Below the pieces are notes generated by a model. That model did no database searches. It was not told where the DNA came from and was given only the letters and a program-made list of their open reading frames with translations. This document shows, in pieces, positions 1,977 through 19,416 of a stretch of 22,430 nt of DNA. The stretch comes from a virus, in IMG/VR virus record IMGVR_UViG_3300048837_001366, positions 1 to 22,430 of that record, one strand, 5' to 3'. How positions within the stretch are numbered: the first letter of the stretch is position 1; the number at the start of each line of letters is the position of its first letter. A program made the translations under genes and the position numbers.

Positions 1977-3506
1977 ATGCTGCATTATCGTGACAACCCC
2001 TTCGCAACGGAGGGGATGAAAGCCCTTGCCCTGCTTGTGCGCCGTGCCGAGCGGGGCAAACGCGTCGTCACTGAGGAGCAATTACAACTGGTTGACCAGT
2101 TGCGGATCATGGAGGCGCGCGAATCCTTTTGGGCGTTCCGTTGCTACATCAACCCCAAGCTTAAGCTGTGCTGGTGGCACTACGATGCATCACTCGCACT
2201 GCAGGATTGGTGGGAAGCGTACAAGCGTGGCGAACGCCCAACGCTGGTGGTGCAGGCACCGCCGCAGCATGGCAAGACCACGATGATGCAGGACTTCCTT
2301 GCGTGGTGCTCGGGGCATAACCCGGACATCAAAAGCATCTATGCATCGTTCAGCGATGCGCTGGGCATCGAGACCAACAAGGCGATGCAGCGCATCTACA
2401 GCAACCCGGCATTCCAGCGGGTGTTCCCCGAGTTGGTCATCAACGCGCAGAACGTTGTGACCATGCTGCGTGCTGCGCGTAACAGTCAGCACATTGATTA
2501 CATCGACCGCGAAGGCTCGTTCCGCAACACCACGGTCAATGGCGTCATCAACGGCTTTGGCTTGGACATTGGTTTGATCGACGACCCGATGAAGGGCCGC
2601 GTCGCTACCCAGTCCAAAACCATTCGTGACAATACGTGGTCTTGGTTCACCTCGGACTTTTTTGCACGTTTTAGCGATCATGCGGGCCTGATCATTATCA
2701 TGACGCGGTGGCATGTCGATGACCCGGTTGGCCGGTTCATCGAGATGTTTCCCGACACGGTGGTCAAGATTTACAAGGCCATCGCCACCGAGGACGAGGA
2801 GTACCGTGCAAAGGGCGAGCCGCTATTCCCCGAGCACAAGTCGCTGGCCTTCCTGCTGCTGCGTAAGAAGGCCTTGGCAGCGTATGAATGGGAGTCGCTG
2901 TACCAGCAAAGCCCCATCATCGTTGGTGGTGACTTGTTCAAGGTGGAGGGCTTCAAGCTTATCGATGCGCAGCCCTACCCGCGCAACGTCATCAAGTCGG
3001 TGCGTTATTGGGATAAGGCAGGCACCGAAGGCGGTGGCGCGTACACCTGCGGCGTGCTGATGCATCTGATGGACGATGACACCTGCGTTGTAAGCGACGT
3101 GGTGCGTGGCCAGTGGTCGGCACTGAAGCGCGAGGAACGCATGCGCCAGACGGCGCAGCTTGATGACGATAAGTGGGGCGTCGTTGCCGTATGGGTTGAG
3201 CAGGAGCCGGGTAGCGGCGGCAAGGAATCAGCCGAGCGTTCGATCATGAACCTGCGCGGGCATGACGTGCATGCCGACCGCGTTACTGGTGACAAAGAGG
3301 TGCGTGCACGGCCGTACGCTGCGCAGGTGGAGGCGGGCAACATCAAGCTGGTGCGCGCACCTTGGAACAAGGAATTCATTGCCGAGCACGAGACGTTTCC
3401 TGCAGGCAAGTACAAGGACCAAGTGGACAGCGCAGGTGGTGCGTTCGCTAAAGTCGCAATCGGTGGCTCGTCATACGATGAGTCCCTTTCATGGGTGGAC
3501 AACTGA
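1977..3506 (+). CDS. Terminase large subunit (TerL)
   Basis: The DNA-packaging motor: an N-terminal ATPase drives DNA into the prohead and a C-terminal RNase H-like nuclease cuts the concatemer. The protein has 509 residues, normal for the family. Walker A is APPQHGKTT at residues 94-102. The Walker B-like strand ends in LIDDP (Asp202/Asp203). A TRWH coupling motif lies at 243-246 after a hydrophobic strand. Nuclease acidic residues are Asp346 (YWDKAGT), Glu408/Glu410 (VEQEPGSGG) and Asp481/Asp484 (KDQVDSAGG). The ATG at 1977 has no clear ribosome site. An in-frame ATG at 2016 follows GGAGGGG closely, only 2 bases from the GGAGG core, so the true start could be residue 14. The stop shares one base with the portal start. 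Packaging strategy (cos or headful) cannot be told from motifs alone. Confidence 0.97.
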   Translation: MLHYRDNPFATEGMKALALLVRRAERGKRVVTEEQLQLVDQLRIMEARESFWAFRCYINPKLKLCWWHYDASLALQDWWEAYKRGERPTLVVQAPPQHGKTTMMQDFLAWCSGHNPDIKSIYASFSDALGIETNKAMQRIYSNPAFQRVFPELVINAQNVVTMLRAARNSQHIDYIDREGSFRNTTVNGVINGFGLDIGLIDDPMKGRVATQSKTIRDNTWSWFTSDFFARFSDHAGLIIIMTRWHVDDPVGRFIEMFPDTVVKIYKAIATEDEEYRAKGEPLFPEHKSLAFLLLRKKALAAYEWESLYQQSPIIVGGDLFKVEGFKLIDAQPYPRNVIKSVRYWDKAGTEGGGAYTCGVLMHLMDDDTCVVSDVVRGQWSALKREERMRQTAQLDDDKWGVVAVWVEQEPGSGGKESAERSIMNLRGHDVHADRVTGDKEVRARPYAAQVEAGNIKLVRAPWNKEFIAEHETFPAGKYKDQVDSAGGAFAKVAIGGSSYDESLSWVDN

Positions 3507-6802: not shown

Positions 6803-7018
6803 ATGATTGAGGTTTTCTACCAGTGCGCCTGCATGCCCAAGGAGGACTCGTTCCACGTCAAGACGCGTGGTGCGGACGAGTCGATTGGGGACTTCATGAT
6901 GCGCATCAGTAGGGGCTTGGCTGATGCACACCACGAGCGTTCGCCACTGTGCATGGCGCGCAGTGTTGACAAGGTGCGCATCCCCGTTACTGACGACGGC
7001 AGGGTTGGCGGCAAATGA
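6803..7018 (+). CDS. Small unknown protein after MuF
   Basis: A 71-residue soluble protein starting directly after the MuF stop and ending with a 4-base ATGA overlap into the collagen-like gene. GGAG at about 6789 is 10 bases before the ATG. It has three Cys (residues 8, 10 and 50) and a helical middle (SIGDFMMRISRGLADAHHE). It is not a recognised family. Its position between MuF and the fibre gene suggests a head or head-fibre accessory role, but this is only context. Confidence 0.65.
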   Translation: MIEVFYQCACMPKEDSFHVKTRGADESIGDFMMRISRGLADAHHERSPLCMARSVDKVRIPVTDDGRVGGK

Positions 7019-8889
7019 GCAATCGCAAAACACGTGACGCCTTTGCGGCGTTGCTCGATGCCGAACCTGTGCAGCCTGTACCTGTGCCTGCGCGTGGCCC
7101 GCGCGGGCGTGATGGCATCGACGGTATCGATGGCGAGGACGGCAAGGATGGCAAGGACGGCGCACCGGGGCCAAAGGGCGACAAGGGTGATGATGGCAAG
7201 CCCGGCAAGGACGGCACTGATGGCAAGCCCGGGCCTAAAGGTGACAAGGGCGACAAGGGCGACACCGGCAAGCAAGGCCCCGAGGGTAAGCCCGGCAAGG
7301 ACGGCCGCAACGGCAAGGATGGCGAACGCGGCCCTGCAGGCAAAGACGGCCGCGATGGCAAAGACGGTGCGCGTGGCCCTGCAGGCAAAGACGGCAAAGA
7401 CGGCAAGCAAGGCCCCAAGGGCGATGCCGGTCGCAACGGTGCCGATGGCGAGGACGGGCTGCCGGGCTGGACGCCAATCCTCGGAATCGAGATCGATGGA
7501 TTCAGGCGGCTGCTTAAGCTGATTGGCTGGGTGCAGGGTAAGCCCGATGTTGAACCGGGGCAGTACGTTGGCGAGGCTGGCTTTGTAAAGCGTGCCGACG
7601 ACGCGGTTGATATCCGTGGCCAGCGTGGCCTTAGCGGTGGCGGTGGTGGCACCACCATCATCCGCGAAGATGGCAGCGGTGGTGCAGGCGAGCAAGGCCC
7701 GCAAGGCGAGCCGGGTGAAGATGGTGCGGACGGCGCTGATGGTGTTAGCGCAGGCCAGCAATACACGTACGATGCAACGCGCACCGATGAGCCGCAGGAT
7801 GGCTTACCCCCGATCATGGGCGGCATTGCCAGCGGCATGTTTTGGTTTGACAACGCTGACTGGTCAGCAGCAACCAAGCTGTACATCAGCACAAGCGATG
7901 GTGATGCGAACCACCTGAGTCCGTGGTTCGCTGCTGTGTTCGATAACCGCGAGATGACGTTCAAGGCAGCCGATGGTAGCTTTGGCGTCTTCCAAGCAAC
8001 TGGCTACGCAGCCAGCATGGACTTTGTTGCTGTTGACGTTGTGTACGTTGCGGCAGGCGGCACGGCATCGAATGGCGAGGTGCACTACCTGACATTCAGC
8101 GGGCCACAAGGCCCGGCAGGTGCACCGGGTGCTGCAGGGGCGGATGGTGCACCGGGCGCTGATGGTGCCGATGGTGAAGACGGTGCACCCGGTGCTGACG
8201 GTGCAAGCGCATACGAGATCGCAGTCGCCAACGGCTTTGTTGGCGATGAACTTGCGTGGCTCGCATCACTGGTTGGCGAACAAGGCCCACAAGGTGAGCC
8301 GGGCACCAACGGCACCAACGGAACGAATGGCGCAGACGGTGCGCCCGGTAGCGTGTGGCGCGAGGGTACAGGTGCGCCATCCGATGCACTTGGCATCAAC
8401 GGGGACTTTTACCTCAATGATGCAAACGGCGACGTGTACCAAAAGAGCAGCGGCACCTACTCGGTTGTCGCCAACATCAAAGGGCCGCAAGGCGACCCGG
8501 GTGCCGATGGTGCTGACGGTGCTGACGGTGCGGATGGCGATGGCAGCTTTCAGTATGCAGGCGTCAATAACATCGGCAACGCCAACCACACCTTGCTCGC
8601 GACCGATATCAACAAGGTTCTATTGTTTGCATTGAGCGCGAACAATCGCACGTTGACCATTCCCGATAATGCGACGACTCCTATTGCCATCGGCTCAAAG
8701 GTCTTTATCGACCAGACCAAGACGACAACAAACCAAGCGTATCTCACAATCTCGGGTGTGGGCGTTACGATTTACGGCGGCCATGCTGTGAATCAAAGCG
8801 GCACCGTGCTTGGTACGAACTTTGCCAACGTGTCGCGGTTCTCGGCCATGCTTGAGAAGGTCGATACCGACGTTTGGATACTGCACTAA
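7015..8889 (+). CDS. Collagen-like fibre protein in head module
   Basis: A 624-residue mosaic fibre protein. After a 27-residue Pro-rich N-terminus, residues 28-151 are an unbroken Gly-X-Y run, Lys- and Asp-rich (GKDGKD, GPKGDKGDKGD), expected to form a collagen triple helix. Globular and short collagen segments then alternate. These are: a module around WTPILGIEIDG; a beta-rich module starting SAGQQYTYDATRT; a second collagen run; the SAYEIAVANGFVGDE module (about residues 396-421); a third run; a module GAPSDALGINGDFYLN; a last run; and a beta-rich C-terminal domain of about 110 residues. All are typical of trimeric phage fibres. The start is the ATGA overlap at 7015. It is encoded between MuF and the scaffold rather than with tail genes, so a head fibre is as likely as a tail fibre. 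Confidence 0.9.
   Translation: MSNRKTRDAFAALLDAEPVQPVPVPARGPRGRDGIDGIDGEDGKDGKDGAPGPKGDKGDDGKPGKDGTDGKPGPKGDKGDKGDTGKQGPEGKPGKDGRNGKDGERGPAGKDGRDGKDGARGPAGKDGKDGKQGPKGDAGRNGADGEDGLPGWTPILGIEIDGFRRLLKLIGWVQGKPDVEPGQYVGEAGFVKRADDAVDIRGQRGLSGGGGGTTIIREDGSGGAGEQGPQGEPGEDGADGADGVSAGQQYTYDATRTDEPQDGLPPIMGGIASGMFWFDNADWSAATKLYISTSDGDANHLSPWFAAVFDNREMTFKAADGSFGVFQATGYAASMDFVAVDVVYVAAGGTASNGEVHYLTFSGPQGPAGAPGAAGADGAPGADGADGEDGAPGADGASAYEIAVANGFVGDELAWLASLVGEQGPQGEPGTNGTNGTNGADGAPGSVWREGTGAPSDALGINGDFYLNDANGDVYQKSSGTYSVVANIKGPQGDPGADGADGADGADGDGSFQYAGVNNIGNANHTLLATDINKVLLFALSANNRTLTIPDNATTPIAIGSKVFIDQTKTTTNQAYLTISGVGVTIYGGHAVNQSGTVLGTNFANVSRFSAMLEKVDTDVWILH
7096..7467 (+). repeat. Collagen Gly-X-Y coding repeat
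   Basis: About 124 consecutive codons encode Gly at every third position (roughly 41 triplets). At DNA level this gives a degenerate 9-base periodicity built from GGC-AAG-GAC, GGC-AAG-CCC and similar units. Lys occupies the X or Y position in many triplets, unlike the lysine-poor collagen segments of the second fibre at 18124-19416. Such repeats can lengthen or shorten by recombination. Confidence 0.95.
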
Positions 8890-9070: not shown

Positions 9071-9868
9071 GTGAAGATTGGCATCATTGGGTACGGCTAC
9101 GTTGGCAAGGGCATTGAGCGCATGTTCGAAGCGAGGGCCGATTGGGTAGCCGTGATCGACCCGGCACAGAAGCGTGACGACCGCACGCGCATGGCCGAGG
9201 CCGATATCATTTTCGTGTGCGTGCCTACGCCGCGCAAGGATGGTGGCGACATGTGCGACACCAGCATTGTGGAAAGCGTGGTCGCTGAATGGGCTGCGCA
9301 CTGCGCATCCAGCCGCGTGCTTATGTGCATCAAGTCAACGGTGCCACCGGGCACGACCGAACGGCTTATCAAGCTGTACGGGGACCACGTGCACTTTAGC
9401 CCCGAGTACATGGGCGAGGGCGGCAACTATGTTGACGCACGCTACCCGGACCCGCGCAACGCTATGAGCCATCCGTTCTGCATCGTTGGTGGTCATCGCG
9501 CAGACCAAGTGCTGGCGTACTTTCAACGTGTGATGGCCACCTCGGCTCGCTACGTTGCAACGACTGCCACGGCAGCCGAGTTGGCCAAGTACATGGAGAA
9601 TGCGTACCTCGCGACCAAGGTGGCATTCTGCAACGAGTTTGCCAGCATCGCTGATGCGCACGGCGTGCCGTACAACACGCTGCGTGACTTGTGGCTGTGT
9701 GATCCGCGCGTCGACCCTTCGCATACGCTGGTGTTTCCAAACCAGCGCGGTTTCAACGGCAAGTGCTTGCCCAAGGACCTTGCTGCGATTCGCATGGCCG
9801 CGTTTATCGCAGGCACCATGACGCCCCTGCTTGATAGTGTTGCGTACTACGACATGGGAGGCGTGTGA
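9071..9868 (+). CDS. UDP-glucose/GDP-mannose dehydrogenase-like enzyme, C-terminal domain missing
   Basis: A 265-residue member of the nucleotide-sugar 6-dehydrogenase family, which oxidises a sugar-nucleotide C6 alcohol to the acid in two NAD-dependent steps. The Rossmann motif GYGYVG is at residues 7-12. VCVPTP and STVPPGTT follow. SPEYMGEG puts the family Glu at 112. ELAKYMENAYLATK holds Lys173 and Asn177. GFNGKCLPKD holds the catalytic Cys232 and Asp236. All expected active-site residues are present with family spacing (Lys+4=Asn, Cys+4=Asp). Usual length is about 430 residues; here the protein ends soon after the catalytic Cys segment, so the third, nucleotide-binding domain is absent. 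The start is GTG, preceded by GGGAGG at 9059-9064. It begins the modification cassette. It may make an unusual oxidised sugar donor or act on another substrate. Confidence 0.88.
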   Translation: MKIGIIGYGYVGKGIERMFEARADWVAVIDPAQKRDDRTRMAEADIIFVCVPTPRKDGGDMCDTSIVESVVAEWAAHCASSRVLMCIKSTVPPGTTERLIKLYGDHVHFSPEYMGEGGNYVDARYPDPRNAMSHPFCIVGGHRADQVLAYFQRVMATSARYVATTATAAELAKYMENAYLATKVAFCNEFASIADAHGVPYNTLRDLWLCDPRVDPSHTLVFPNQRGFNGKCLPKDLAAIRMAAFIAGTMTPLLDSVAYYDMGGV

Positions 9869-10761
9869 TGAAACCTGCAAAGCTTTGGTGCTACGCGGAC
9901 CACAAGAATTGGGGGCTGCAGCTTGGTCGTGCTGCAGCCAAACGCGGTTGGGATGCGGCGCTGTTTAGCAACGCTGCCACCGTAAAGCCTGCGCAGGGCA
10001 CATTGGCATTCGTGCACATGCACCACGAGAAGACCCGCGAGTCGGATAAGAAGCTGATGCAGGACTTGCATGCCAAGGGCGTGCGCACGATCCCGGGGCT
10101 GGTGCAAGCCTATCTGTACGACGACAAGGTTGCGCAGGCGCAGGCCTTTCACAAGTGGATGCCGCGTACGCATTTCATTGGCACCCGCGAGGCAGCGCTG
10201 CGCATCATGCAGTACGAGATGCAGTACCCGTTCATCAGCAAGGCACGTGAGGGTGCCGCCTCGTACAACGTGCGCATCGTGCGGGACGAGGTACAGGCCT
10301 TGCACGAAATCAATGCGGTGTTTGGTGGCATGGGCCTGCCGCTGCACCGGCAGCAGGTGCAGCGCGAGTACCTGTTGTGGCAGGAGTTTGTTGCTGACAA
10401 CGACCACGACATTCGCGTGATCGCAATCGGCAAGCAGCGCATGCTTTTGAAGCGCTATGTCCGCAGCGCCGAACAACCTTTTGCCTCGGGCAGCGGCAAG
10501 CTGGAGCCGATTGGCAACCTTGCCGATCCAATGATCGGCAGCGCGTACGCCTTTGCTGATGCCTTCTTTAAGGCCGAGGGCGAGACATGGTGTGGCATCG
10601 ACTTGGTGTTTGATCACAAGGCGCAGCGCTGGCGCTTGTTGGAGACCACCGTTGGCTGGACCATGGCGGGTTACGCCAAGTGCACATTCTTTCCAGACGG
10701 CCGCATGGGCGACCGCTGGTGCGACGTCACACTGGACGAAATCGAAGCGGGGAATCTTTAG
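9868..10761 (+). CDS. ATP-grasp domain protein (RimK-like ligase)
   Basis: A 297-residue ATP-grasp enzyme. The family joins a carboxylate, activated as acyl phosphate by ATP, to an amine or similar nucleophile. ATP-site features in order: Lys125 in SKAREGAASYNVR; the hinge segment WQEFV at 171-175; DIRVIAIG at 181-188; and the magnesium-binding end GIDLVFD (Asp245) plus RLLETTVGW (Glu259). The Asn that usually follows this Glu by two residues is Thr here. The N-terminal 100 residues form a pre-ATP-grasp fold of unclear specificity. The ATG overlaps the dehydrogenase stop by one base (TGATG), with GGGAGG 5-6 bases upstream. Following a sugar-acid-producing dehydrogenase, it could amidate or conjugate a carboxylated sugar or peptide. 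The substrate is unknown. Confidence 0.82.
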   Translation: MKPAKLWCYADHKNWGLQLGRAAAKRGWDAALFSNAATVKPAQGTLAFVHMHHEKTRESDKKLMQDLHAKGVRTIPGLVQAYLYDDKVAQAQAFHKWMPRTHFIGTREAALRIMQYEMQYPFISKAREGAASYNVRIVRDEVQALHEINAVFGGMGLPLHRQQVQREYLLWQEFVADNDHDIRVIAIGKQRMLLKRYVRSAEQPFASGSGKLEPIGNLADPMIGSAYAFADAFFKAEGETWCGIDLVFDHKAQRWRLLETTVGWTMAGYAKCTFFPDGRMGDRWCDVTLDEIEAGNL

Positions 10762-10763
10762 CA

Positions 10764-11360
10764 ATGGCAATGCAGCACTTTTGGCGCGATATCAAAGGCT
10801 GGGCATCCTTTCGTGAACTGTACGAGGAGATGGTCAAAGCAGCACCGGCCGACACGCCTTCGCACTTTGTCGAAATTGGATCGTGGTTCGGCAAGAGTGC
10901 TGTGTACATGGCGGTGGAGATCGCCAATAGCGGCAAGCCAATCAAGTTTGATTGCGTCGACCCGTGGACGGATGGCGGTGCAGACTTGAAGCACAAGACG
11001 GTTGGTTGGGAAAAGGATGCGCTTTACAAGGCGTTCATCCGCAACATTCAACCGGTGCGCCACTACATCACGGCCGTGCGCGAGCGTTCGCTCGATGCAG
11101 CGCCGCGTTACGAGGATGCGTCGCTGGACTTTGTAATGATCGACGGCGACCACTCGTACGAGGCCTGCCTAGCCGATATCGATGCGTGGCTGCCCAAAGT
11201 GAAAAAGGGCGGTGTGATCGCAGGCGACGACTACAACTGGTCTGGCGTCAAGCGTGCGGTGCGCGACCGGTTCGACATGCGTGACGTCGATATCCGCTCG
11301 CACCAGCGTGTGGACAACCGCACGCTTAAGTCGTTCGAGTATTGGGTGCACAAGGTTTAA
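10764..11360 (+). CDS. Class I SAM-dependent methyltransferase (family 24 type)
   Basis: A 198-residue methyltransferase of the Methyltransf_24 type. Motif I, FVEIGSWFGKSAVYMA (residues 35-50), is the SAM-binding glycine loop. FDCVDPW (62-68) is the acidic strand-2 end. FVMIDGDHSYE (123-133) and GGVIAGDDY (149-157) are the characteristic later strands with metal- or substrate-binding Asp residues. Members methylate sugar hydroxyls in polysaccharide and antibiotic pathways, among other small molecules. GGGGAA at about 10749 precedes the ATG at 10764; in-frame ATG 10770 is a possible alternative. It starts 2 bases after the ATP-grasp gene. With the flanking glycosyltransferases, sugar O-methylation is the simplest guess. 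Confidence 0.87.
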   Translation: MAMQHFWRDIKGWASFRELYEEMVKAAPADTPSHFVEIGSWFGKSAVYMAVEIANSGKPIKFDCVDPWTDGGADLKHKTVGWEKDALYKAFIRNIQPVRHYITAVRERSLDAAPRYEDASLDFVMIDGDHSYEACLADIDAWLPKVKKGGVIAGDDYNWSGVKRAVRDRFDMRDVDIRSHQRVDNRTLKSFEYWVHKV

Positions 11361-11372
11361 CGGGAGGCTGCC

Positions 11373-11666
11373 ATGTCTGAGCGTGTGATGCTGCAGGTGA
11401 ATAAAACGCAGGTGGTGGATGCGGCGACCATCTTCGAGATCGATGGCCGCACCACCGGGCTGCCCGAGGCCGAGCGCTGGGTGAACTTCAAGGCCCGCGA
11501 TGCGGACGGCAAGGTGACGCTGTACAGCACCGACTTTGGTGTGGACGTGGTGCGCACCATTGCCGAGGCCAACGACGCAATCATCCGCGCAGGCGGCAGC
11601 GTCGTGGTGTTGCAGCGTGGCAGCGACGTGCCGCCGACCATCGATACGGTTGTGGTGCCCGCGTGA
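11373..11666 (+). CDS. Unknown small protein in the modification cassette
   Basis: A 97-residue soluble protein, mixed alpha/beta in appearance, with a clear ribosome site (GGGAGG before the ATG at 11373). Its end overlaps the next gene by 4 bases (GTGA). No motif identifies it. Being embedded between a methyltransferase and a glycosyltransferase, it may be a carrier, chaperone or acceptor protein for the cassette. Nothing in the sequence proves this. Confidence 0.7.
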   Translation: MSERVMLQVNKTQVVDAATIFEIDGRTTGLPEAERWVNFKARDADGKVTLYSTDFGVDVVRTIAEANDAIIRAGGSVVVLQRGSDVPPTIDTVVVPA

Positions 11667-12388
11667 TCACGTTTGTTTATACGTACTACGACAACCCGGT
11701 GATGCTGCAGACGCAGCTTGCCGCTTGGTTGCGGTACGACCAAGCTGCGCTTGCGCAGATCAAATTCATCGTCGTCGACGATGGTAGCGAGAAGCAGACA
11801 GCTTTGCCGGTGGTGCAGGGTGTAATGCAGGGCCAATGGGGCAAGCTGGACCTGCGGCTGTTTCGCGTGAACGTCAACATACCGTGGAACATGGATGGCG
11901 CGCGCAACTTGGCCATGCAGCATGTGAAAACGGAATGGGCGATGCTTTGCGACATCGACCACCTGCTGCCGCCAAGCGAGACACTGTGGCTGCTGCAGCT
12001 ACCGTTCACGCGCGGCACCGCGTACATGCCCAACCAAGTGCTTGCCGATGGGCGTTCACTCGGTCGGCCGCACCCGAACACGTACATCATGCGCAAGCAG
12101 GATTACTGGAATGTCGGTGGCTACGATGAAGACTTTGCAGGCTGGTACGGCAGCGATGCAAACTTCCAACGCCTGCTGCGACAGTGGGGAATCGATTTGC
12201 AATACGTGTCCTCGCTGAACCTTACGGTCTACCGCAGCGAGGATATCGATGACGCGAATACCAAAGACTGGGGGCGCAACCGCACTCAATGGAGCGTGTC
12301 AAACAACCCGGCGCTGTTAGCGAAGGCACGAGGCCCCCGCTACAAGCCGATCAACCCGGTACGCTTTCCTTGGGAGCAGCAGCTATGA
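11663..12388 (+). CDS. GT-A glycosyltransferase, family 2-like
   Basis: A 241-residue glycosyltransferase with the GT-A fold signatures. VVDDGS (residues 37-42) is at the nucleotide-binding strand. NMDGARNLAMQ (76-86) leads to the metal-binding DID motif at 97-99 (MLCDIDH). YDEDFAGWYGSD (154-165) is the acidic catalytic-base loop of family 2 enzymes. It would transfer a sugar from a nucleotide donor in the cytoplasm; no membrane segment is present, so the acceptor is soluble or peripheral. The start is GTG at 11663, overlapping the previous stop. The next gene begins by an ATGA overlap, so the two glycosyltransferases are translationally coupled. Confidence 0.88.
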   Translation: MITFVYTYYDNPVMLQTQLAAWLRYDQAALAQIKFIVVDDGSEKQTALPVVQGVMQGQWGKLDLRLFRVNVNIPWNMDGARNLAMQHVKTEWAMLCDIDHLLPPSETLWLLQLPFTRGTAYMPNQVLADGRSLGRPHPNTYIMRKQDYWNVGGYDEDFAGWYGSDANFQRLLRQWGIDLQYVSSLNLTVYRSEDIDDANTKDWGRNRTQWSVSNNPALLAKARGPRYKPINPVRFPWEQQL

Positions 12389-13185
12389 ATCGCGTGCACT
12401 TTGTGTCGTGGAAATGGAGCCAGACCAAACTCACTGGCAATCACCCGCTTGGTGGTGGCTACGTTGCCGAGCATGTGAATGTGATGCACGACATGCTGCT
12501 GCGCAATGTGACGATTCCATTCCGGCACGTGTGCGTCACGGACGAGCCGGGCAATATCAACCAGCGCGTCGACGTGCATCCGCTTTGGGATGATTTGAAC
12601 GACAAGCACAACATCTGCGGCAGGCACCTGCCAAGCTGCTACCGCAGGCTCAAGCTGTTCGACCCCATCACGCAGCGCGAGATGGGCATCAGCAAGGGCG
12701 ACCGCATCGTTAGCATCGACTTGGACTGCGTCATCGTGCGCAACACCGACCACCACTGGCGCAGGCAGGAGCGGTTTGTTGGCTGGGCACGGCGCGGCAG
12801 CGTGCACCCGACCGTATTCAACGGCAGCATGTGGATGTTTACCGCAGGCGACTTGGAGGAAATCTGGACGGAGTTTGATCCGGCTACCTCGCCGCAGGAA
12901 GCAAACCGCGCTGGCTACATGGGCAGCGACCAAAGCTGGTTGTCGTACAAGCTGGTGCGCCAGAACTTTGTCGGGGGCTGGGAGCCGACCCGGGTGTTGT
13001 CGTACAGCAACGACATCTGGAACAAGCGCACCAACGCACTTAGCCGTGCGGACATCATCTTTTTTCACGGCAGGCGTAAGCCGTGGCACGCGGAGGCCAG
13101 CAGCAAGCACCCGTGGATTCGTGACCACTGGCGCTTGTCCACCTCCACGAATCGGCAAGTCACTGGCGCTGCAATTCGCGCCTAG
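12385..13185 (+). CDS. Putative glycosyltransferase with DxD motif
   Basis: A 266-residue protein resembling GT-A enzymes with a central DLD motif (residues 112-114, in GDRIVSIDLDCVIV), the usual divalent-metal and sugar-nucleotide site. Downstream features are NGSMWMF (146-152) and GSDQSWLSY, typical of nucleotide-diphospho-sugar transferases that place Asp/Gln near the active site. The family number is not certain. The ATG at 12385 overlaps the preceding stop (ATGA) and has GGGAG about 9 bases upstream. It is the last gene of the cassette; a 32-base gap with a fresh AGGAG then leads to the protease/scaffold gene. The acceptor could be a phage fibre protein, a host surface glycan or DNA; the sequence does not say. 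Confidence 0.78.
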   Translation: MNRVHFVSWKWSQTKLTGNHPLGGGYVAEHVNVMHDMLLRNVTIPFRHVCVTDEPGNINQRVDVHPLWDDLNDKHNICGRHLPSCYRRLKLFDPITQREMGISKGDRIVSIDLDCVIVRNTDHHWRRQERFVGWARRGSVHPTVFNGSMWMFTAGDLEEIWTEFDPATSPQEANRAGYMGSDQSWLSYKLVRQNFVGGWEPTRVLSYSNDIWNKRTNALSRADIIFFHGRRKPWHAEASSKHPWIRDHWRLSTSTNRQVTGAAIRA

Positions 13186-13217: not shown

Positions 13218-14474
13218 ATGGCTCGGCACATCATGGTCGACCGGCTTGAGTTTGACGACGCGGCTCAAGTGCGTACGACCCAAAAGGGTTTCATCACAGC
13301 GATCCCGCGCGTCGCGCGTACCGGCATCCAAGTCTATTCGGGCAAGGAAGTCGGCAAGCACGATATGCAAACCGTGCGCGTGTACCGCAGCGAGGAGGAG
13401 GTATTCAAAAAGGATGCCTTTGCATCGCTGGCGCATACCACCATCACGGACGACCATCCGGCGCAGATGGTGGACTCCACCAACTGGAGCAAGCTGGCTG
13501 TTGGCCAAGCTGACGGGGACGTGGTGCGGGACGGCGAATTCATTCGGGTGCCACTGGCGCTTATGGATGCCGGTGCAGTCGCAAAATACAAGGCAGGAAA
13601 GGCCGAACTGAGTGTCGGCTACACCTGCGATTTGGACTTCACCCCGGGGATTGATCCTGCCTCGGGACTCGCATACGACGCGGTTCAACGGAATATCCGT
13701 GCGAACCACATCGCATTGGTCGACCGCGCACGTGGTGGCCACAAGCTTCGCATCGGTGACGACGGCACGCTGGTCGCTGATGTAACTGCTGATGATACAG
13801 CGGCCAGCAACACACAGGAGACTGATACTATGGCTGACGGTAAGCCGACCAAGACCATCCTCATTGATGGCATCAGCGTGGCGCTCGAACAGCGTGACGC
13901 TGAATTCGTCCAGCGTGCACTCGATAGCGCGGCCAAGGCGCTGGAGACTGCCAACGCACAAGTCGCGAAGCTGACGGCCGATGCCAAGAAGCGCGACGAG
14001 GACGAGGAAGAGGAAAAGAAAAAGAAGGAGGAACTCTTCAAGGCCAAGGACGCCGAGATCGTTGCCCTGAAAAAGCAGGTCGAGGACTCGGTGATGACCC
14101 CGGCCAAGGTCGATGCACTCGTCAAGGACCGCGCCGAGGTGATCGGCAAGGCCAAGGTGGTGCTCGGTGACAAGGCACCGAAGGATATCGATACGCTCGA
14201 TTCCGATGCGGTGCGCAAGGCGGTCGTCGACCACAAGCTGGGCGATGCTGCCAAGGGCTGGGATGCTGGCCAGATCGGCGTGGCGTTCACGTCGCTCACT
14301 GCCGGTATCAAGGTCGGTGACAAATCGGCGGCCCCTGCCGGTGGTGGTGCGCAGCACATGGCGCAGCACTTCGCGCAGACGATGCCGGTCGGTGACTCGC
14401 AAGGCGAGCCTGCCGGTTACGCGGCGTACAAAAAGCGCCTCGGTGACGGCTACAAGCAGAAGCCTGCGGCGTAA
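13218..14474 (+). CDS. Prohead protease (DUF2213 type) with C-terminal scaffold domain
   Basis: A 418-residue fusion. Residues 1-180 match DUF2213-type prohead proteases: YRSEEEVF, TDDHP (His80), ELSVGY (Ser132) and NHIALVDRARGG (163-174). His80 and Ser132 are the likely catalytic pair, as in HK97-fold proteases. Residues about 205-420 look like scaffold: a charged coiled coil (about 224-290, with a run of Glu and Lys), then an Ala/Lys-rich helical part and a basic C-terminal tail that would contact the capsid protein. AGGAG at 13205-13209 sits 8 bases before the ATG at 13218, preferred over the in-frame GTG at 13209. It directly precedes cement and capsid genes. An internal start (separate entry) may yield free scaffold. 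Confidence 0.9.
   Translation: MARHIMVDRLEFDDAAQVRTTQKGFITAIPRVARTGIQVYSGKEVGKHDMQTVRVYRSEEEVFKKDAFASLAHTTITDDHPAQMVDSTNWSKLAVGQADGDVVRDGEFIRVPLALMDAGAVAKYKAGKAELSVGYTCDLDFTPGIDPASGLAYDAVQRNIRANHIALVDRARGGHKLRIGDDGTLVADVTADDTAASNTQETDTMADGKPTKTILIDGISVALEQRDAEFVQRALDSAAKALETANAQVAKLTADAKKRDEDEEEEKKKKEELFKAKDAEIVALKKQVEDSVMTPAKVDALVKDRAEVIGKAKVVLGDKAPKDIDTLDSDAVRKAVVDHKLGDAAKGWDAGQIGVAFTSLTAGIKVGDKSAAPAGGGAQHMAQHFAQTMPVGDSQGEPAGYAAYKKRLGDGYKQKPAA
13816..13832 (+). promoter_or_regulatory. Internal ribosome site and ATG for nested scaffold
   Basis: AGGAG followed by a 9-base spacer and ATG, inside the protease-scaffold reading frame. The encoded linker (TAASNTQETDT) is low-complexity, so the site costs little to keep in the protein. 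Confidence 0.55.
13830..14474 (+). CDS. Nested scaffold protein from an internal start (candidate)
   Basis: In-frame ATG at 13830 is Met205 of the protease-scaffold fusion and would give a 214-residue scaffold-only product. AGGAG at 13816-13820 lies 9 bases upstream, as good a site as most genes here, and it falls exactly between the protease domain and the coiled coil. Nested protease/scaffold genes with this arrangement are established in lambda (C and Nu3). The internal site could be chance, but its position at the domain border argues otherwise. Confidence 0.6.
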   Translation: MADGKPTKTILIDGISVALEQRDAEFVQRALDSAAKALETANAQVAKLTADAKKRDEDEEEEKKKKEELFKAKDAEIVALKKQVEDSVMTPAKVDALVKDRAEVIGKAKVVLGDKAPKDIDTLDSDAVRKAVVDHKLGDAAKGWDAGQIGVAFTSLTAGIKVGDKSAAPAGGGAQHMAQHFAQTMPVGDSQGEPAGYAAYKKRLGDGYKQKPAA

Positions 14475-14490
14475 GCCGTTCACGGGATAC

Positions 14491-14516
14491 GGTAGCGCGG
14501 CCTAGCGCCGCGCACC
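14491..14516 (+). other. Intercistronic hairpin after scaffold gene
   Basis: A 7-bp GC-only stem, GCGCGGC (14495-14501) with GCCGCGC (14507-14513), and a 5-base loop CTAGC. It extends by GGT/ACC across a bulged A. No T-run follows, so it is not a classic terminator. It may act as an RNA stabiliser, a processing site or a partial attenuator between scaffold and cement. Confidence 0.6.
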
Positions 14517-14562
14517 GAGCGTAACCGAGTATCACAATCCATCAACAAGGGAGTTAGGCATT

Positions 14563-15039
14563 ATGCCTTTCGTTCAGACCACCTACAGTGAGCGCATGCA
14601 GCCTGCCTTCGAGGGCATGCTCCATGGCACTGACAACGATGTTTTCACTGGCATCGTTGAAGCGGAAACGACCATCGGATTCGGCAAAGCCGTCAAGTCC
14701 GAGGCTGGTGCGGAGTCGATGAACAACATCATCGACTTTGGCGCGGCTGCTGCCACGTTCGCTGGCATCACGGTCAAGGACCCGGCACTCGGGGCCGAGG
14801 TTACGGCGTACGGCGCTGGCAAGAATGCCGGTGTCCTGCGGCGTGGCCAGATTTGGGTGAAGTCGACCGGCGCTGCGGCGGTGGTCGGTGCCTTCGCCTA
14901 TTACGTCCCGGCGACGGGCGTCATCCAAGCCAACTCCGGTGGTGGTGCTGTTGCCATCGCTGGCTCACGCTGGGTGACCAACGCCGCGCAGGACGGACTC
15001 GCTGTGCTGTACATCCCGGGACCGGTCGCTAACGCCTAA
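14563..15039 (+). CDS. Capsid decoration/cement protein (DUF2190-like)
   Basis: A 158-residue protein with an extended N-terminal arm (first 45 residues: FVQTTYSERMQPAFEGML) and a compact beta-rich Ala/Gly/Val core ending LAVLYIPGP. This is the pattern of head-cement proteins that sit on the capsid lattice and strengthen it after expansion. GVLRRGQIWVKSTGAAAV and the alternating small-residue strands resemble the DUF2190/structural-cement group. AGGGAG lies about 9 bases upstream of the ATG. Position directly before the major capsid gene is typical. The assignment comes from pattern and context, without alignment. Confidence 0.78.
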   Translation: MPFVQTTYSERMQPAFEGMLHGTDNDVFTGIVEAETTIGFGKAVKSEAGAESMNNIIDFGAAAATFAGITVKDPALGAEVTAYGAGKNAGVLRRGQIWVKSTGAAAVVGAFAYYVPATGVIQANSGGGAVAIAGSRWVTNAAQDGLAVLYIPGPVANA

Positions 15040-15048
15040 GCCCCTGCC

Positions 15049-15086
15049 TGATTAGCGCAAGCTAATCATCAGGGCGCTTACGCGCC
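15049..15086 (+). other. Two tandem hairpins between cement and capsid genes
   Basis: First hairpin: TGATTAGC (15049-15056), loop GCAA, GCTAATCA (15061-15068), an 8-bp perfect stem with a stable GNRA-type tetraloop. Second: GGCGC (15073-15077), loop TTAC, GCGCC (15082-15086). No T-run follows either. They sit in the 81-base gap 5' of the capsid gene, where they may protect or define the 5' end of a capsid mRNA. Confidence 0.65.
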
Positions 15087-15120
15087 ACGCTACCCGAACC
15101 ACAATCGAAAGGACTAAAAG

Positions 15121-16083
15121 ATGTTTCTTCCCGACGCACAACAGGCGCTGGGCTTTGTCGTAAGCCAGACCTCGCACATCGAGGCCACGGTGTACGAGGA
15201 GCAGTATCCCGAGATTCAGTACGACAAGCTGATCCCGATCGATACCAGCGCCAACGAATGGGCCAAGTCCGTCACGTACTACTCGATGAACAAAGTCGGC
15301 GCAGCCGGTTGGTTTCATCACTACGCGAAGGACATCCACGTTGCCGACAGCGAGCGTGCGAAGCACGAGGTCGGTGTCGAGATGGCCGACATCGGCTACC
15401 GCTGGTCTCTGGAAGAGATCGGCCAAGCGATGATGACCGGTACGCCGCTGCAGGCCGAACGGGCTGCGGCTGCGCGCCGTGCATACGAGGAGTTCATGGA
15501 CGAGAAGGCCCTGTTCGGTGATGCCGACAAGGGAATTTTCGGCCTGCTGAACTACCCGGGCATCACGACCACCACCGTGCCTGCGGATGGTGGCGACGAT
15601 GACGAAACCTCGTGGGCCATGAAGTCGGTCGATCAAATCCTGCGCGACTTCAATGCCGCGCTGACCGGCATCATGGTGGACTCGCTGCAGGTGGAAATGG
15701 CTGACACGGTTCTGCTGCCGTTGCAGTCGCTTAACCTGCTTGCGCAGACCCGCCTCGGCTCGGGCGATGGTGCGATGACGCTGCTCGACTTCATCGCCAC
15801 CAAGAACGTGTACACGTTCCAGACCGGTCGGCCGTTGCTGATCCGTGCTGTGCGTGGACTCGAAACGGCGGGTGAAGGTGGTGTCGGTCGCATGATCGTG
15901 TACCGCCGCGACCCGCAAGTGCTGAAAATGCACGTGCCGATGCCGCACCGCTTCATGCCGGTGTGGCAGACCGGGCCGCTCGTGTTCGACGTGCCCGGCA
16001 TCTTCCGCCTCGCTGGCGTGGAGGTTCGTCGCCCGGGCGCGTTCCGCTACGTGGACGGCATCATGGATGCCAACTACGAGTAA
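15121..16083 (+). CDS. Major capsid protein (DUF2184 type)
   Basis: A 320-residue protein resembling the DUF2184 group of HK97-fold capsid proteins. An N-terminal segment (residues 1-45) contains YEEQYPEIQYDKLIPID. A long helical part follows (SLEEIGQAMMTGTPLQAERAAAARRAYEEFMDEKALFG, about 100-137, given here in outline). Then come IFGLLNYPGI, a loop with DGGDDDETSW, a central helix/strand block with LLPLQSLNLLAQTRLG, and a C-terminal beta part ending VEVRRPGAFRYVDGI. GAAAGGA precedes the ATG. Many family members are not extensively cleaved; here no obvious protease site near the N-terminus is visible. Third positions are strongly G/C, as expected of the most highly expressed gene. Confidence 0.92.
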   Translation: MFLPDAQQALGFVVSQTSHIEATVYEEQYPEIQYDKLIPIDTSANEWAKSVTYYSMNKVGAAGWFHHYAKDIHVADSERAKHEVGVEMADIGYRWSLEEIGQAMMTGTPLQAERAAAARRAYEEFMDEKALFGDADKGIFGLLNYPGITTTTVPADGGDDDETSWAMKSVDQILRDFNAALTGIMVDSLQVEMADTVLLPLQSLNLLAQTRLGSGDGAMTLLDFIATKNVYTFQTGRPLLIRAVRGLETAGEGGVGRMIVYRRDPQVLKMHVPMPHRFMPVWQTGPLVFDVPGIFRLAGVEVRRPGAFRYVDGIMDANYE

Positions 16084-16112
16084 GGCGCAAGCCTGATGCA
16101 CTGAGTTGCAAA

Positions 16113-16154
16113 CCCCGCCGCGTGTTTTGCCTCCCAAGCAGCGCGGCGGGGCTT
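16113..16154 (+). terminator. Hairpin after capsid gene (terminator-like)
   Basis: A perfect 10-bp GC stem, CCCCGCCGCG (16113-16122) with CGCGGCGGGG (16142-16151), enclosing a 19-base loop and followed by CTTT. The T-run is short, so termination may be partial. It is about 30 bases after the capsid stop. Confidence 0.65.
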
Positions 16155-16160
16155 TGCGAG

Positions 16161-16213
16161 GAGGGGGCATCGCGCAGCGCGGCGGTGACCCCCTCTTTAC
16201 CTGTTTAGTTTTT
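16161..16213 (+). terminator. Second hairpin with T-rich tail
   Basis: GAGGGGG (16161-16167) pairs with CCCCCTC (16189-16195). The loop contains a smaller CGCG-CAG-CGCG hairpin. T-rich DNA follows (CTTTACCTGTTTAGTTTTT), the best Rho-independent terminator-like tail in the window. With the preceding hairpin it would reduce read-through from the capsid gene into the connector genes. Confidence 0.65.
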
Positions 16214-16239
16214 CAACTGCGCTAGTGGAGGCTTAGGCT

Positions 16240-16866
16240 ATGATTGACAAGACCCCAGCGGTGCGGGTTGGCATGTTCGACACGCCGCTGAATAAATTGC
16301 GCAAGGCACCGCGCGAGGTGGTGACCGTGCGCATCAAGAATCGCGGCCCCAACCCGCGCATCATCTTCGATACATCGCAGCGCGCAATCAAGTTGGCAGT
16401 TGGCGAAGCCAAGGCCATCGAGATCGGCAAGAAATATGCGCAGCGGATTCAGGCATTGTCGCTGCAGGGCGGCTCGCTGACTGTGCTCGACCAATCGGTG
16501 CTGGATGGCGATGCTGATGCCAAGCCGGTGCAGCGTGTGCGCATCAAGTCGCGCGGCGAACACAACGCCGAGCATGCTGCGCAGGATCAACGCACCAGCA
16601 AGCGTGCACCGAAGACCAAGGCCAAGCACGGCTCGGTCAGCAAGTCATCCGGCAAGCCTGCAAAGGCACCGAAGGACTCGAGCGTGATCCGGCCGGAAAT
16701 CAAAACGGCATCCGAGTTGCTGAACGCAATGAACGATGGCGAGCCGCTGGCTTACAACCATTTCAAGTCGGTGGCCTTTAGGGTGCTGCCTGCCGGTACG
16801 CTGGCCAACGGGGCCAACAAGGCAGCCATCCTGAAAGCCTTGGAGGTGCACGCCCGGGCCGAATAA
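16240..16866 (+). CDS. Unknown head-module protein with basic linker
   Basis: A 208-residue protein between the capsid gene and the connector genes. Residues about 1-92 look globular and beta-rich (VVTVRIKNRGPNPRIIFD, AIEIGKKYAQ, GGSLTVLD). Residues 95-150 form a Lys/Arg/Ser-rich, probably disordered linker. Residues 155-208 form a small helical C-terminal domain (ASELLNAMNDGEPLAYNHF, KAAILKALEVHARAE). GGAG at about 16227 precedes the ATG. I do not recognise the family. Position suggests a capsid, connector or DNA-contacting head protein; the lysine-rich linker would suit contact with packaged DNA. Confidence 0.72.
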   Translation: MIDKTPAVRVGMFDTPLNKLRKAPREVVTVRIKNRGPNPRIIFDTSQRAIKLAVGEAKAIEIGKKYAQRIQALSLQGGSLTVLDQSVLDGDADAKPVQRVRIKSRGEHNAEHAAQDQRTSKRAPKTKAKHGSVSKSSGKPAKAPKDSSVIRPEIKTASELLNAMNDGEPLAYNHFKSVAFRVLPAGTLANGANKAAILKALEVHARAE

Positions 16867-16883
16867 GGCCCCGGTGCCACGTG

Positions 16884-16903
16884 GGCTGGCCTAAAAACCA
16901 GCC
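16884..16903 (+). other. Small hairpin 5' of the large inverted repeat
   Basis: GGCTGG (16884-16889), 8-base loop CCTAAAAA, CCAGCC (16898-16903). It ends exactly where the left arm of the 16-base inverted repeat begins, so the two could stack coaxially. It lies 18 bases after the stop of the preceding gene. Confidence 0.6.
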
Positions 16904-16992
16904 GAAATAAGCCCCGTCCGTAAGCTTTACGGGCAGCCCGGCTACCCCAGCCGCCCCCAAGGCGGTTTAGGCGCATGGACGGGGCTTATTTC
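16904..16992 (+). terminator. Large structured element with 16-bp closing stem; possible terminator
   Basis: The left arm GAAATAAGCCCCGTCC (16904-16919) and right arm GGACGGGGCTTATTTC (16977-16992) are perfect reverse complements. The 57 bases between them contain further potential hairpins: GTAA-GCT-TTAC (16920-16930), CGGCT-ACCCC-AGCCG (16939-16953) and, competing with it, CCGCC-CCCAA-GGCGG (16951-16965). The AAATAAGCCCC...GGGGCTTATTT form resembles a bidirectional terminator with A- and T-rich ends, but the loop is much longer than usual and itself structured. A stable non-coding RNA or a DNA-level site is the alternative. It fills most of the 190-base gap, the longest non-coding stretch in the window. 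Confidence 0.55.
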
Positions 16993-17056
16993 CAGTTTAG
17001 GGCGGGCCAAAGTTCCCGCCAAGTTCCCTACCCCTGCCAACCCGGAGGCCCCAGCC

Positions 17057-17428
17057 ATGGCGGTTATTGTGCCCACACTGGACGAGATTCTGGCGCGCTT
17101 CCCCGCGCTGGAGGGCAATGATGAACTTGTGCAGGCTTGCTTGGAAGAGGCAGCAGCACAGGTGGACGACCGGTGGCTCGAATCCGATACCAAGCGGGCC
17201 ATCATGTACCTTACTGCGCACTTGACGCAGACCGAGCTTGACCGTGGTGGCGAGTCGGGCGCTGCAGGCAACATCGCAAGCGAGTCGATGGGGCCAATCA
17301 GCGTGTCGTATCGCGACGGCGCTGCAAGCGGCAAGGTGGACGACTACAGCACCACCATCTATGGCCAGCGCTTTGCTGAACTGCTGCGCGCCAACTTTGG
17401 TGGCGTACTGGTGGCAGACGCGCAATGA
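17057..17428 (+). CDS. Head-tail connector protein (DUF4054-like)
   Basis: A 123-residue protein with the pattern of DUF4054/adaptor-type head completion proteins. It has an N-terminal helical bundle starting FPALEG (residues 15-20), helices with AAAQVDDRWL and IMYLTAHL, then SVSYRDGAASG and a C-terminal STTIYGQRFAELL segment. Such proteins form a ring below the portal to which the stopper and tail attach. GGAGG is 10 bases before the ATG. The stop overlaps the next start by 4 bases (ATGA), which fits successive connector proteins made in register. Confidence 0.82.
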   Translation: MAVIVPTLDEILARFPALEGNDELVQACLEEAAAQVDDRWLESDTKRAIMYLTAHLTQTELDRGGESGAAGNIASESMGPISVSYRDGAASGKVDDYSTTIYGQRFAELLRANFGGVLVADAQ

Positions 17429-17751
17429 ACGTTGCTCGACTCCAAAACACAGCACTGCGCCAAATCAAGCGCTGGGGCGGGCAAGGCTTCCTTGTCCGTG
17501 ACGGCGCTAAGCGGGCGTGCTGGGTTTGCATCATCGATTACAAGCCGCGCGATGCAGACCTGCGCATGGTTGGCGCAAAGCGTGCACTGATTGCCGCCAA
17601 GGGACTCGCGGTTGGCCCCGACCGCGAGTTGGACCAAGTGGAGTTCAAGGGCCAACGCTGGCGCATCGTCAATCCGATCACAGGGCCGCGCCCGAACGGC
17701 ACGCCCATCTTTTACGACTGCGAGGTGGTCTATGAATCCGCTGCAACGTGA
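17425..17751 (+). CDS. Putative head-closure (stopper) protein
   Basis: A 108-residue, beta-rich protein. The C-terminal part, with ELDQVEFKGQRWRIVNPITGPRPNGTPIFYDCEVVYE, is described here by its key features: an Asp/Glu before a FKGQRWRIV strand, a PxTGP turn, and a final YDCEVVYE strand. This small barrel layout is common in head-closure proteins such as SPP1 gp16-type stoppers. The start is an ATGA overlap with the connector gene, and its last 20 bases overlap the next gene. Family assignment is by pattern and gene order only. Confidence 0.65.
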   Translation: MNVARLQNTALRQIKRWGGQGFLVRDGAKRACWVCIIDYKPRDADLRMVGAKRALIAAKGLAVGPDRELDQVEFKGQRWRIVNPITGPRPNGTPIFYDCEVVYESAAT

Positions 17752-18121
17752 CATCACGGTTGTACGTGGCAACTCGGGGCCAAAGGCTGGAATCATTTTC
17801 CGCCTGCAAGCTGGCGACCCGCTGGAGCCAATTGCGTACGAGGATATCCGCTTGTCGGTTTATGATAAGCGGGGCACCACTGAAATCCTCCGTGCCACAC
17901 TTGGCAACGGGGGAATCGTCGTTCTGGATGAACCGACCGGCACCATTGCTTGGTCGCCAACGGCAGAAGAGAGCCGCTCGATTCCAAAAAGCAGTGACGG
18001 TGTCACACCAAAGGCAACGTACGAGCTTGAGGTTTGGAATGCGGGCACCGAGTTGACGTACATGATGGGCGGTGTGATCGCCATCGGTGGCGTCAACGAC
18101 GACGTTGAATCGGATTCCTGA
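17732..18121 (+). CDS. Small beta-rich fibre-base/BppU-like protein
   Basis: A 129-residue protein starting with ITVVRGNSG, then a Gly/Pro strand pattern (GIIFRLQAGDPLEPIAYEDI in outline) and a C-terminal YELEVWNAG segment. This beta-sandwich pattern is common in small phage proteins encoded just before collagen-like fibres, where they anchor the fibre. The ATG at 17732 has GAGGTGG upstream and overlaps the preceding gene by 20 bases. The longer in-frame upstream ATG at 17591 would overlap the stopper gene by more than 150 bases and is rejected. It ends 2 bases before the fibre gene. Confidence 0.65.
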   Translation: MNPLQRDITVVRGNSGPKAGIIFRLQAGDPLEPIAYEDIRLSVYDKRGTTEILRATLGNGGIVVLDEPTGTIAWSPTAEESRSIPKSSDGVTPKATYELEVWNAGTELTYMMGGVIAIGGVNDDVESDS

Positions 18122-18123
18122 TC

Positions 18124-19416
18124 ATGGCCGAGGACGTACAACTCGTCATCGAAGAGAACCAAGTCGTTGCGGCGGTCGGCCCTGAGCCGGTCGACGTGCT
18201 TACGCTTGTCATCGCAGGCCCGCCCGGGCCTGCAGGACCCGGCGCAGGTGCGCAGGGACCGGAGGGGCCGCAAGGCCCTGCAGGCCCCCCGGGCCAAGAT
18301 GGCCAGATCATTGTCACCGAGGGCAATGTCGTAACTGGCGAAGGTGCGCCCAACGATGCGGACGGCGAGCCGGATGGCACGCTGTACATCGATGAACTGC
18401 CGCCCAATGACGTTTATCTGAAAGAGGCGGGCACCTACGTCTACAAGGTTTCCATCAAGGGCGCGCAGGGCGCGCAGGGCATCCAAGGCCCTGCAGGCGC
18501 AGCAGGTGACGCAGGCCTTTCGATTCGCGTCGTTGCTGGTGTGCCCAACAATGCGCTTGGTGTGAATGGTGACAGCGCAATCGATAATCAAACGGGCGAC
18601 CTGTACCTGAAGGCTGCAGGCGTTTACGTGCTGCAGTACAACTTGCGCGGCCCCGCTGGTGAAGATGGCGAGCCGGGCGCAGCCGGTGCAGACGGCGCAG
18701 ATGGTGCCGATGCCTACTCGGTTGCGTTGAGCGCTGGCTTTGAAGGCACGTGCGAGGAGTGGCTGGAGTCGCTTATCGGCCCGCCCGGGCCTGCAGGTGC
18801 GGACGGTGTTAGCGACGTGCCCGGTCCCCCGGGTGAAGATGGCGAGGACGGTGCGCCCGGCGCACCGGGTGCCGATGGTGCCAGTGCGTATGAGGTTGCG
18901 GTTGCGAATGGTTTCGTCGGTGATGAAACTGCGTGGCTGGCATCGCTGGTTGGCCCTGCTGGCGCAGATGGCGAGGATGGCGATGACGGTGCCCCCGGTG
19001 CGCCCGGTGCTGATGGTGCTCCCGGCGCTGATGGCGCACCGGGTGCGGACGGCGCTGACGGCACCGACGCGGCTATCGAGCGGGAGGTGCCTGCCACCAT
19101 TACGGCAAGCACCAACCTCGATGACGATGATGGTGGTGACTTACTGGTCATCAACCCTGCAAGCGGCGCGGTGGTGCTTACCGTGCGCAAGCAGGCCACG
19201 TACGCTTGGTCCGAGAACTGGCAAATCGACCTGTGCAACATCAGCGATGGTACGCACGAGGTGCGTGTGGTGGCAGAGGACGGCGACGTCACGATTCACA
19301 CTGGTGAAGCGACCGGCACGTTCCGCGCCATTAACCCGCACGGCGGCACTGCAACGCTGAACCGTTTGGCAGCCAATGTATGGGTGCTGAGCGGCAACAC
19401 GGCCGAGGTTGTCTGA
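18124..19416 (+). CDS. Collagen-like tail fibre protein
   Basis: A 430-residue fibre with an N-terminal attachment domain of about 35 residues (VQLVIEENQVVAAVG), then Gly-X-Y runs alternating with small modules. There are two copies of the PN-x-G-x-NGD type module (GAPNDADGEPDGTLYID and GVPNNALGVNGDSAID). There are two copies of the SAYEVAVANGF type module (DAYSVALSAGFEGTCEEWLESL and, closer to consensus, SAYEVAVANGFVGDETAWL). A last lysine-poor collagen run (GADGAPGADG) leads to a beta-rich C-terminal domain of about 110 residues. It shares these modules with the fibre at 7015-8889 but is otherwise different. The ribosome site is weak, suggesting coupling to the upstream gene. The last base of its stop is the first of the next ATG. 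Confidence 0.9.
   Translation: MAEDVQLVIEENQVVAAVGPEPVDVLTLVIAGPPGPAGPGAGAQGPEGPQGPAGPPGQDGQIIVTEGNVVTGEGAPNDADGEPDGTLYIDELPPNDVYLKEAGTYVYKVSIKGAQGAQGIQGPAGAAGDAGLSIRVVAGVPNNALGVNGDSAIDNQTGDLYLKAAGVYVLQYNLRGPAGEDGEPGAAGADGADGADAYSVALSAGFEGTCEEWLESLIGPPGPAGADGVSDVPGPPGEDGEDGAPGAPGADGASAYEVAVANGFVGDETAWLASLVGPAGADGEDGDDGAPGAPGADGAPGADGAPGADGADGTDAAIEREVPATITASTNLDDDDGGDLLVINPASGAVVLTVRKQATYAWSENWQIDLCNISDGTHEVRVVAEDGDVTIHTGEATGTFRAINPHGGTATLNRLAANVWVLSGNTAEVV
18877..18954 (+). repeat. Fibre module shared with the first collagen-like gene
   Basis: These 26 codons (starting GASAYEVAVANGF) encode a segment identical at 24 of 26 residues to 8200-8277 in the other fibre. By my codon-by-codon comparison, 14 of the 24 conserved residues use different synonymous codons. 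The protein module is therefore conserved while the DNA has diverged, arguing against a recent duplication. Confidence 0.8.

Follow-up and report, generated by a model that had tools for sequence, protein, structure and literature searches.

A palindrome-ended intergenic repeat of an uncultured tailed phage that may act as a terminator

Judged by its sequence, the perfect 16-bp inverted repeat described here, E1, belongs to a small family of dispersed repeats that has at least three copies, located between the gene blocks of a phage. The E1 hairpin is beyond chance. The favoured reading, if a tentative one, is that E1 is a hairpin of the intrinsic-terminator type that causes termination.

The window (the whole 22,430-nt stretch of DNA analysed) is a fragment of an uncultured, siphovirus-like tailed-phage genome. 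Codon-usage gene calling placed all genes of the window on the + strand, including terminase, portal, protease, decoration, major capsid, connector and tail genes. E1 is flanked by a head gene and a head-tail connector gene and occupies what proved to be the longest gene-free gap of the window by the same gene calling (16867-17056, 190 nt; the next is 181 nt), as had been claimed. A capsid-protein search found an overlapping IMG/VR record of the same phage, G008, of 43,420 bases. Its identity with the window is complete over two compared stretches of 1175 and 4455 bases (~5.6 kb), and somewhere between these stretches there is a net difference of 20 bases. G008 stops within the capsid gene, so E1 itself is outside it. 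Replication genes encoded by the phage include primase, helicase, DNA polymerase, clamp and loader. The features at the E1 locus, in window coordinates, are:

15121-16083, + strand: major capsid gene (phrog_264)
16240-16866, + strand: gene upstream of E1 and next after the major capsid gene, 208 aa, no PHROG match
16884-16903, + strand: left hairpin GGCTGG/CCAGCC with a loop of 8, adjoining the left end of E1; outside the repeat, the flanks being unaligned between copies
16904-16992, no strand assigned: E1, a palindrome-ended repeat unit of ~90 bp with ends GAAATAAGCC...GGCTTATTTC, defined by sequence and by homologous copies (nhmmer and alignment)
16904-16919, + strand: left arm GAAATAAGCCCCGTCC, which on the - strand gives the 3' arm and a CTTATTTC tail
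16920-16976, + strand: 57-nt loop of E1 with short hairpins, e.g., CCGCC/GGCGG at 16951-16955/16961-16965
16940-16958, + strand: conserved core GGCTACCCCAGCCGCCCCC, present also in copy E3 in the same orientation and in copy E2 in the opposite one, there with two differences
16977-16992, + strand: right arm GGACGGGGCTTATTTC, comprising the 3' half of the GC stem, GGACGGGG, and the T-rich tail CTTATTTC
17001-17020, + strand: right hairpin GGCGGG/CCCGCC (17001-17006/17015-17020) with a loop of 8, outside the repeat
17057-17428, + strand: gene downstream of E1, 123 aa, phrog_302 virion structural protein with a weak match to phrog_541 head-tail adaptor

Elsewhere in the window, five to six genes at 9071-13185 (by eye sugar-nucleotide dehydrogenase, ATP-grasp, methyltransferase and glycosyltransferase-like) are flanked by a fibre-like gene and the head protease gene, a cargo unusual for the head region. 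Long collagen-like Gly-X-Y repeats occur in two genes (7015-8889 and 18124-19416). The portal ORF (3491-5575, 694 aa) is an apparent portal fusion, its C-terminal residues 550-684 matching the phrog_755 RNA ligase family (E 2e-22).

The original prediction described error-free arms, a foldable loop and a separate hairpin at the left arm, and all three were verified: the two 16-bp arms, 57 nt apart, are perfect reverse complements, RNA folding of the 57-nt loop yields further hairpins, and the left hairpin is present at 16884-16903. The right hairpin, which mirrors the left one in placement, was absent from that description. When the window was dinucleotide-shuffled 60 times, perfect inverted repeats (loop to ~120 nt) reached 15 bp at most. 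Structure folding, proposed earlier as a check, closed the outer stem on both strands and did so better than in shuffles: the + strand RNA of E1 forms 18 pairs at -53.1 kcal/mol (z -5.4, 0/200 shuffles equal) and the - strand RNA 16 pairs at -55.1 (z -3.7, 1/200 shuffles equal). Ranked by folding energy for G+C, the E1 segment is about tenth among 3851 windows of 104 nt from the phage. Its folding is thus strong, not unique, and other parts, including coding ones, are equally structured. The region at 16095-16211, just 3' of the capsid gene, has a stronger fold for its G+C than E1. A strong hairpin, CCCCGCCGCG/CGCGGCGGGG, with a CTTT tail is found at 16112-16152, directly 3' of the major capsid gene.

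A search with the E1 region returned related sequence in G008, at 26263-26331 and near 10787. E1, E2 and E3 align as one family of 88-90 bp that occurs in both orientations, and a fourth copy is doubtful:

G008 26230-26317, opposite orientation to E1: E2 (nhmmer, alignment)
G008 10753-10839, + strand, same orientation as E1: E3 (nhmmer, alignment), left end degenerate
G008 417-488: E4, sharing the core modules and not the ends (single-sequence nhmmer E 0.07-0.7)

Single-sequence nhmmer matched E2 with E1 at E 4e-5 (reverse 7e-4) and E2 with E3 at E 4e-3 (reverse 2e-3); for E4, sequence similarity is only suggestive of membership. Five occurrences of the end 10-mer GAAATAAGCC/GGCTTATTTC were counted in 50,255 bases, compared with 0.06 expected, and each is at an end of E1, E2 or E3. 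The core GGCTACCCC begins 51-52 nt before the right end in each of these three copies, and the 17-mer GGACGGGGCTTATTTCC of the right arm is common to E1 and E2. The perfect stem is kept in E1 only: the terminal inverted repeats are 16 bp and perfect in E1 and 9 bp plus mismatches in E2, and E3 has no left arm. In the predicted RNA of the E2 region at G008 26307-26345, the right arm may pair either upstream or downstream. Pairing with the downstream segment 26336-26345, at a probability near 1, is favoured, the outer stem being ~7 kcal/mol costlier. RNAalifold on the four copies gave a hairpin in the core and, at the base, a short helix. One pair of this helix is compensatory (two U-A, two C-G), which would be too little as proof of an RNA structure. 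The longest flanking direct repeat is 4 bp at E1 (CCAG, offset) and 2 bp at E2, with none at E3. Because E2 is inverted while the genes all lie on the + strand, the orientation of the copies is independent of the direction of transcription. This speaks against an RNA that must be read in a single sense and favours either a strand-symmetric element or a feature at the DNA level.

The copies sit in long gaps between called genes (codon-usage gene calling), with a G+C of 0.66-0.71, that are built from common short modules (G008 403-660, 10671-10961 and 26174-26398; window 16867-17056). The GTAG-containing hexamers GCTACC/GGTAGC number 8 in these gaps vs ~1.1 expected, together an enrichment of ~7-fold. 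The E4 gap separates a DnaB-like helicase fragment from a DNA helicase, the E3 gap an SSB-like gene from the clamp and polymerase genes, and the E2 gap an SbcC-like gene from a NusG-like gene:

G008 26399-26893 (= L039 7399-7893), + strand: NusG-like protein of 164 aa, with NGN domain PF02357 (E 3e-10) and a match to phrog_6386 transcription antiterminator (E 2e-8)

The NusG-like ORF starts 82 nt past E2 and is followed by a canonical terminator (G008 26970-26994). The motif GGCGGTAG, which we take to be part of the RfaH ops site, is located inside E2, ~130 nt upstream of the NusG-like start. NusG-like genes were found in 10 of 19 related records, and no repeat-like element was seen before these genes at six loci, three of them in an uninformative orientation. 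The frequency of NusG-like genes in relatives indicates that the protein belongs to a wider group; the repeat was not seen to share this spread.

If E1 is a terminator, the polymerase would exit the gene at 16240-16866 and transcribe E1, where compact loop hairpins would bring together the GC parts of the arms (CCCCGTCC/GGACGGGG). The GC stem would close just as the U-rich CUUAUUUC emerges, intrinsic termination, probably partial, would result, and the capsid-region mRNA would be left with a hairpin-protected 3' end. Because its A-rich and T-rich ends mirror each other, E1 could act on either strand. Termination, its efficiency and the same action by the other copies are what we infer here.

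Several observations are consistent with termination at E1. A stable GC-rich hairpin is present on both strands, as is a T-rich tail straight after the stem (CTTATTTC, 5 T in 8), although the internal A makes this tail weak. Co-transcriptional folding of E1 to 16993 retained the full stem beside the U-rich tail, which counts for termination. At least three homologous copies, in both orientations in an all-+ genome and all in gaps, are what a strand-symmetric element predicts. Among relatives, 9 of 10 have simple hairpins 3' of the capsid gene, several with T-rich tails, and in L029 (TTCTTAT tail), L005 and L007 a hairpin is found between the gene pair that flanks E1. A hairpin near the E1 site is therefore common in the group, though the E1 sequence is not. 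On the other side, the loop of E1 is not short (57 nt vs 3-8 nt in the terminator scan, which did not list E1), and both the preference of the E2 right arm for its downstream partner and the lost left arm of E3 argue against a uniform RNA role. Of the four options in the original prediction, the bidirectional terminator gave the best fit (GC-rich stem, CTTATTTC on both strands, position and the hairpins of relatives). A stable phage RNA, an RNase-protected mRNA end and a recombination/packaging site fit less well but are conceivable. The insertion that the prediction added to the terminator found no support, since the ~90-bp unit recurs elsewhere in the genome with conserved spacing and the loop belongs to it, rather than being a foreign insert. 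Our tentative stance on termination reflects the terminator features of E1 weighed against a stem that is not uniformly kept.

Because only E1 keeps the perfect stem, a DNA-level site and REP/MITE-like debris stay as readings. In the former, GAAATAAGCC would be a half-site, paired in inverted form in E1 and E2 but single in E3, for a phage or host protein that controls transcription or replication where modules meet, and the hairpin would be a by-product of the dyad. We regard this as rather unlikely. The confinement of the 10-mer to E1-E3 argues for it, as does the exact 10-mer in E3 despite the lost partner and in E2 despite the non-preferred RNA stem, but recent common descent of the copies would equally preserve the ends. 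The core is conserved as well, which a simple dyad operator would not require, and the site is without a candidate binding protein. A repeat with no function for the phage, spread by transposition, recombination or template switching and tolerated intergenically, is also on the unlikely side, if not to be neglected; the perfect arms of E1 may then stem from quasipalindrome correction. Sharp borders at inverted termini, unrelated flanks, both orientations and the decayed copies E3 and E4 all suit such a repeat, as does the enrichment of GTAG-containing GCTACC/GGTAGC in the gaps, which compares with the GTAG-tagged REP superfamily (PMC3733652). It is opposed by the lack of target-site duplication beyond the 4-bp match at E1, by the absence of a Y1 (RAYT-type) transposase (PF01797) from the two phage records G000 and G008, and by the presence of just three to four copies, at module borders.

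The NusG-like gene directly 3' of E2, GGCGGTAG inside E2 and the two mutually exclusive E2 hairpins bring to mind an antitermination or attenuation element (put-, ops- or LoaP-like) that would work with the phage NusG-like protein via structured RNA. We find this improbable for the family: E1 and E3 are opposite to E2 and lack GGCGGTAG, so that no common RNA would be shown to the polymerase, and the readable NusG-like genes of relatives have no repeat-like element before them. By itself, the E2 region might be a two-state switch upstream of the NusG-like gene. A broader scheme, in which the copies form a phage-specific, palindrome-ended control family at module borders, acting in either orientation as terminators opened in sequence by the phage's own NusG-like antiterminator, with E2 as a two-state switch before the gene of that factor, seems more doubtful still. 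Least probable is a single-strand hairpin for replication, i.e., a primosome or lagging-strand start site for the phage's own replisome. The phage does have replisome genes, and hairpin-forming elements are spread along its genome, but no GC-skew change was seen near E1, and nothing positive was found.

Searches for the element elsewhere recovered little beyond G008. No DNA similarity to the E1 locus was found in phages and plasmids, and the exact arm pattern was not found in IMG/VR. The end pattern with 45-75 nt spacing matched, in IMG/VR, G008, the Mu-like contig L041 and, by chance, one coding sequence seen in two records; in GTDB genomes it gave five matches, about the estimated chance number and most within predicted ORFs. 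One of these, L050, is a separate tandem of hairpins. The IMG/VR matches of the 17-mer GGACGGGGCTTATTTCC other than G008 lie within coding sequence. A core-plus-end pattern matched G008 and one further contig, L062, in which a profile search found no element. Searches for close relatives with the capsid, NusG-like, SbcC-like and DNA polymerase proteins returned G008 only, and no other relative carrying the E1 element was found in the viral searches. The named phages Erebus, RHEph05, CUB19, Pam3 and Silvergun have short gaps and at most a simple hairpin 3' of the capsid gene. In L041, GCGAAATAAGCCGG...CCGGCTTATTTCGC enclose three hairpins (2395-2487) between Mu-like protease and Phage_tail_S genes. 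The build is similar to E1, but the core is unrelated by profile search, and this hairpin was rejected as a relative. Its likeness suggests that hairpins with a long structured loop and AAATAAGCC/GGCTTATTT arms may form repeatedly. Rfam 15 gave no gathering match in the window or G008 1-29000 (best permissive match mir-934, E 0.2), and a tRNA/tmRNA search of the DNA returned nothing.

Should E1 and the other copies terminate or gate transcripts, a one-directional genome would be cut into blocks by a repeated hairpin cassette, in a lineage with few sigma-70-like promoters (simple scan) and with possible involvement of a phage NusG paralogue. A limited literature search found no dedicated study of such a paralogue. 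To our knowledge, a REP/MITE-like repeat is uncommon in a tailed phage genome, and this holds even if the E1 family is debris.

E1 resembles bidirectional intrinsic (Rho-independent) terminators in its GC-rich stem, in the A-rich 5' and T-rich 3' flanks on each strand and in its intergenic place after a structural-region gene, and differs in its 57-nt structured loop, interrupted T tract and imperfect sibling repeats. The mobile regulatory cassettes of T4-type phages (PeSL) consist of a promoter and a stem-loop. Like them, the E1 family comprises small intergenic stem-loop cassettes that recur in one phage genome, but a simple scan found no sigma-70-like promoters beyond chance in window 14000-18500 and G008 1-29000. 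With MITEs the family shares short, non-coding units, inverted terminal repeats and several decayed copies, but there is no clear target-site duplication and no related transposase was found. REP elements are palindromes of 20-40 bp with an unpaired GTAG at one end, and GTAG-tagged palindromes are a known REP superfamily (PMC3733652). As in REP/BIME (PMC3733652), the E1 units are intergenic, palindromic, dispersed in both orientations and equipped with a GTAG-containing core, and have modules common to the gaps. The REP features of size and GTAG position, copy number and RAYT gene (PMC3733652) are all lacking: the units are 88-90 bp long, carry GTAG within the core, number three to four, occur in a phage and have no RAYT gene found with them. 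We conclude that the E1 family is a modest addition to the known kinds of intergenic repeat and not a new kind of system.
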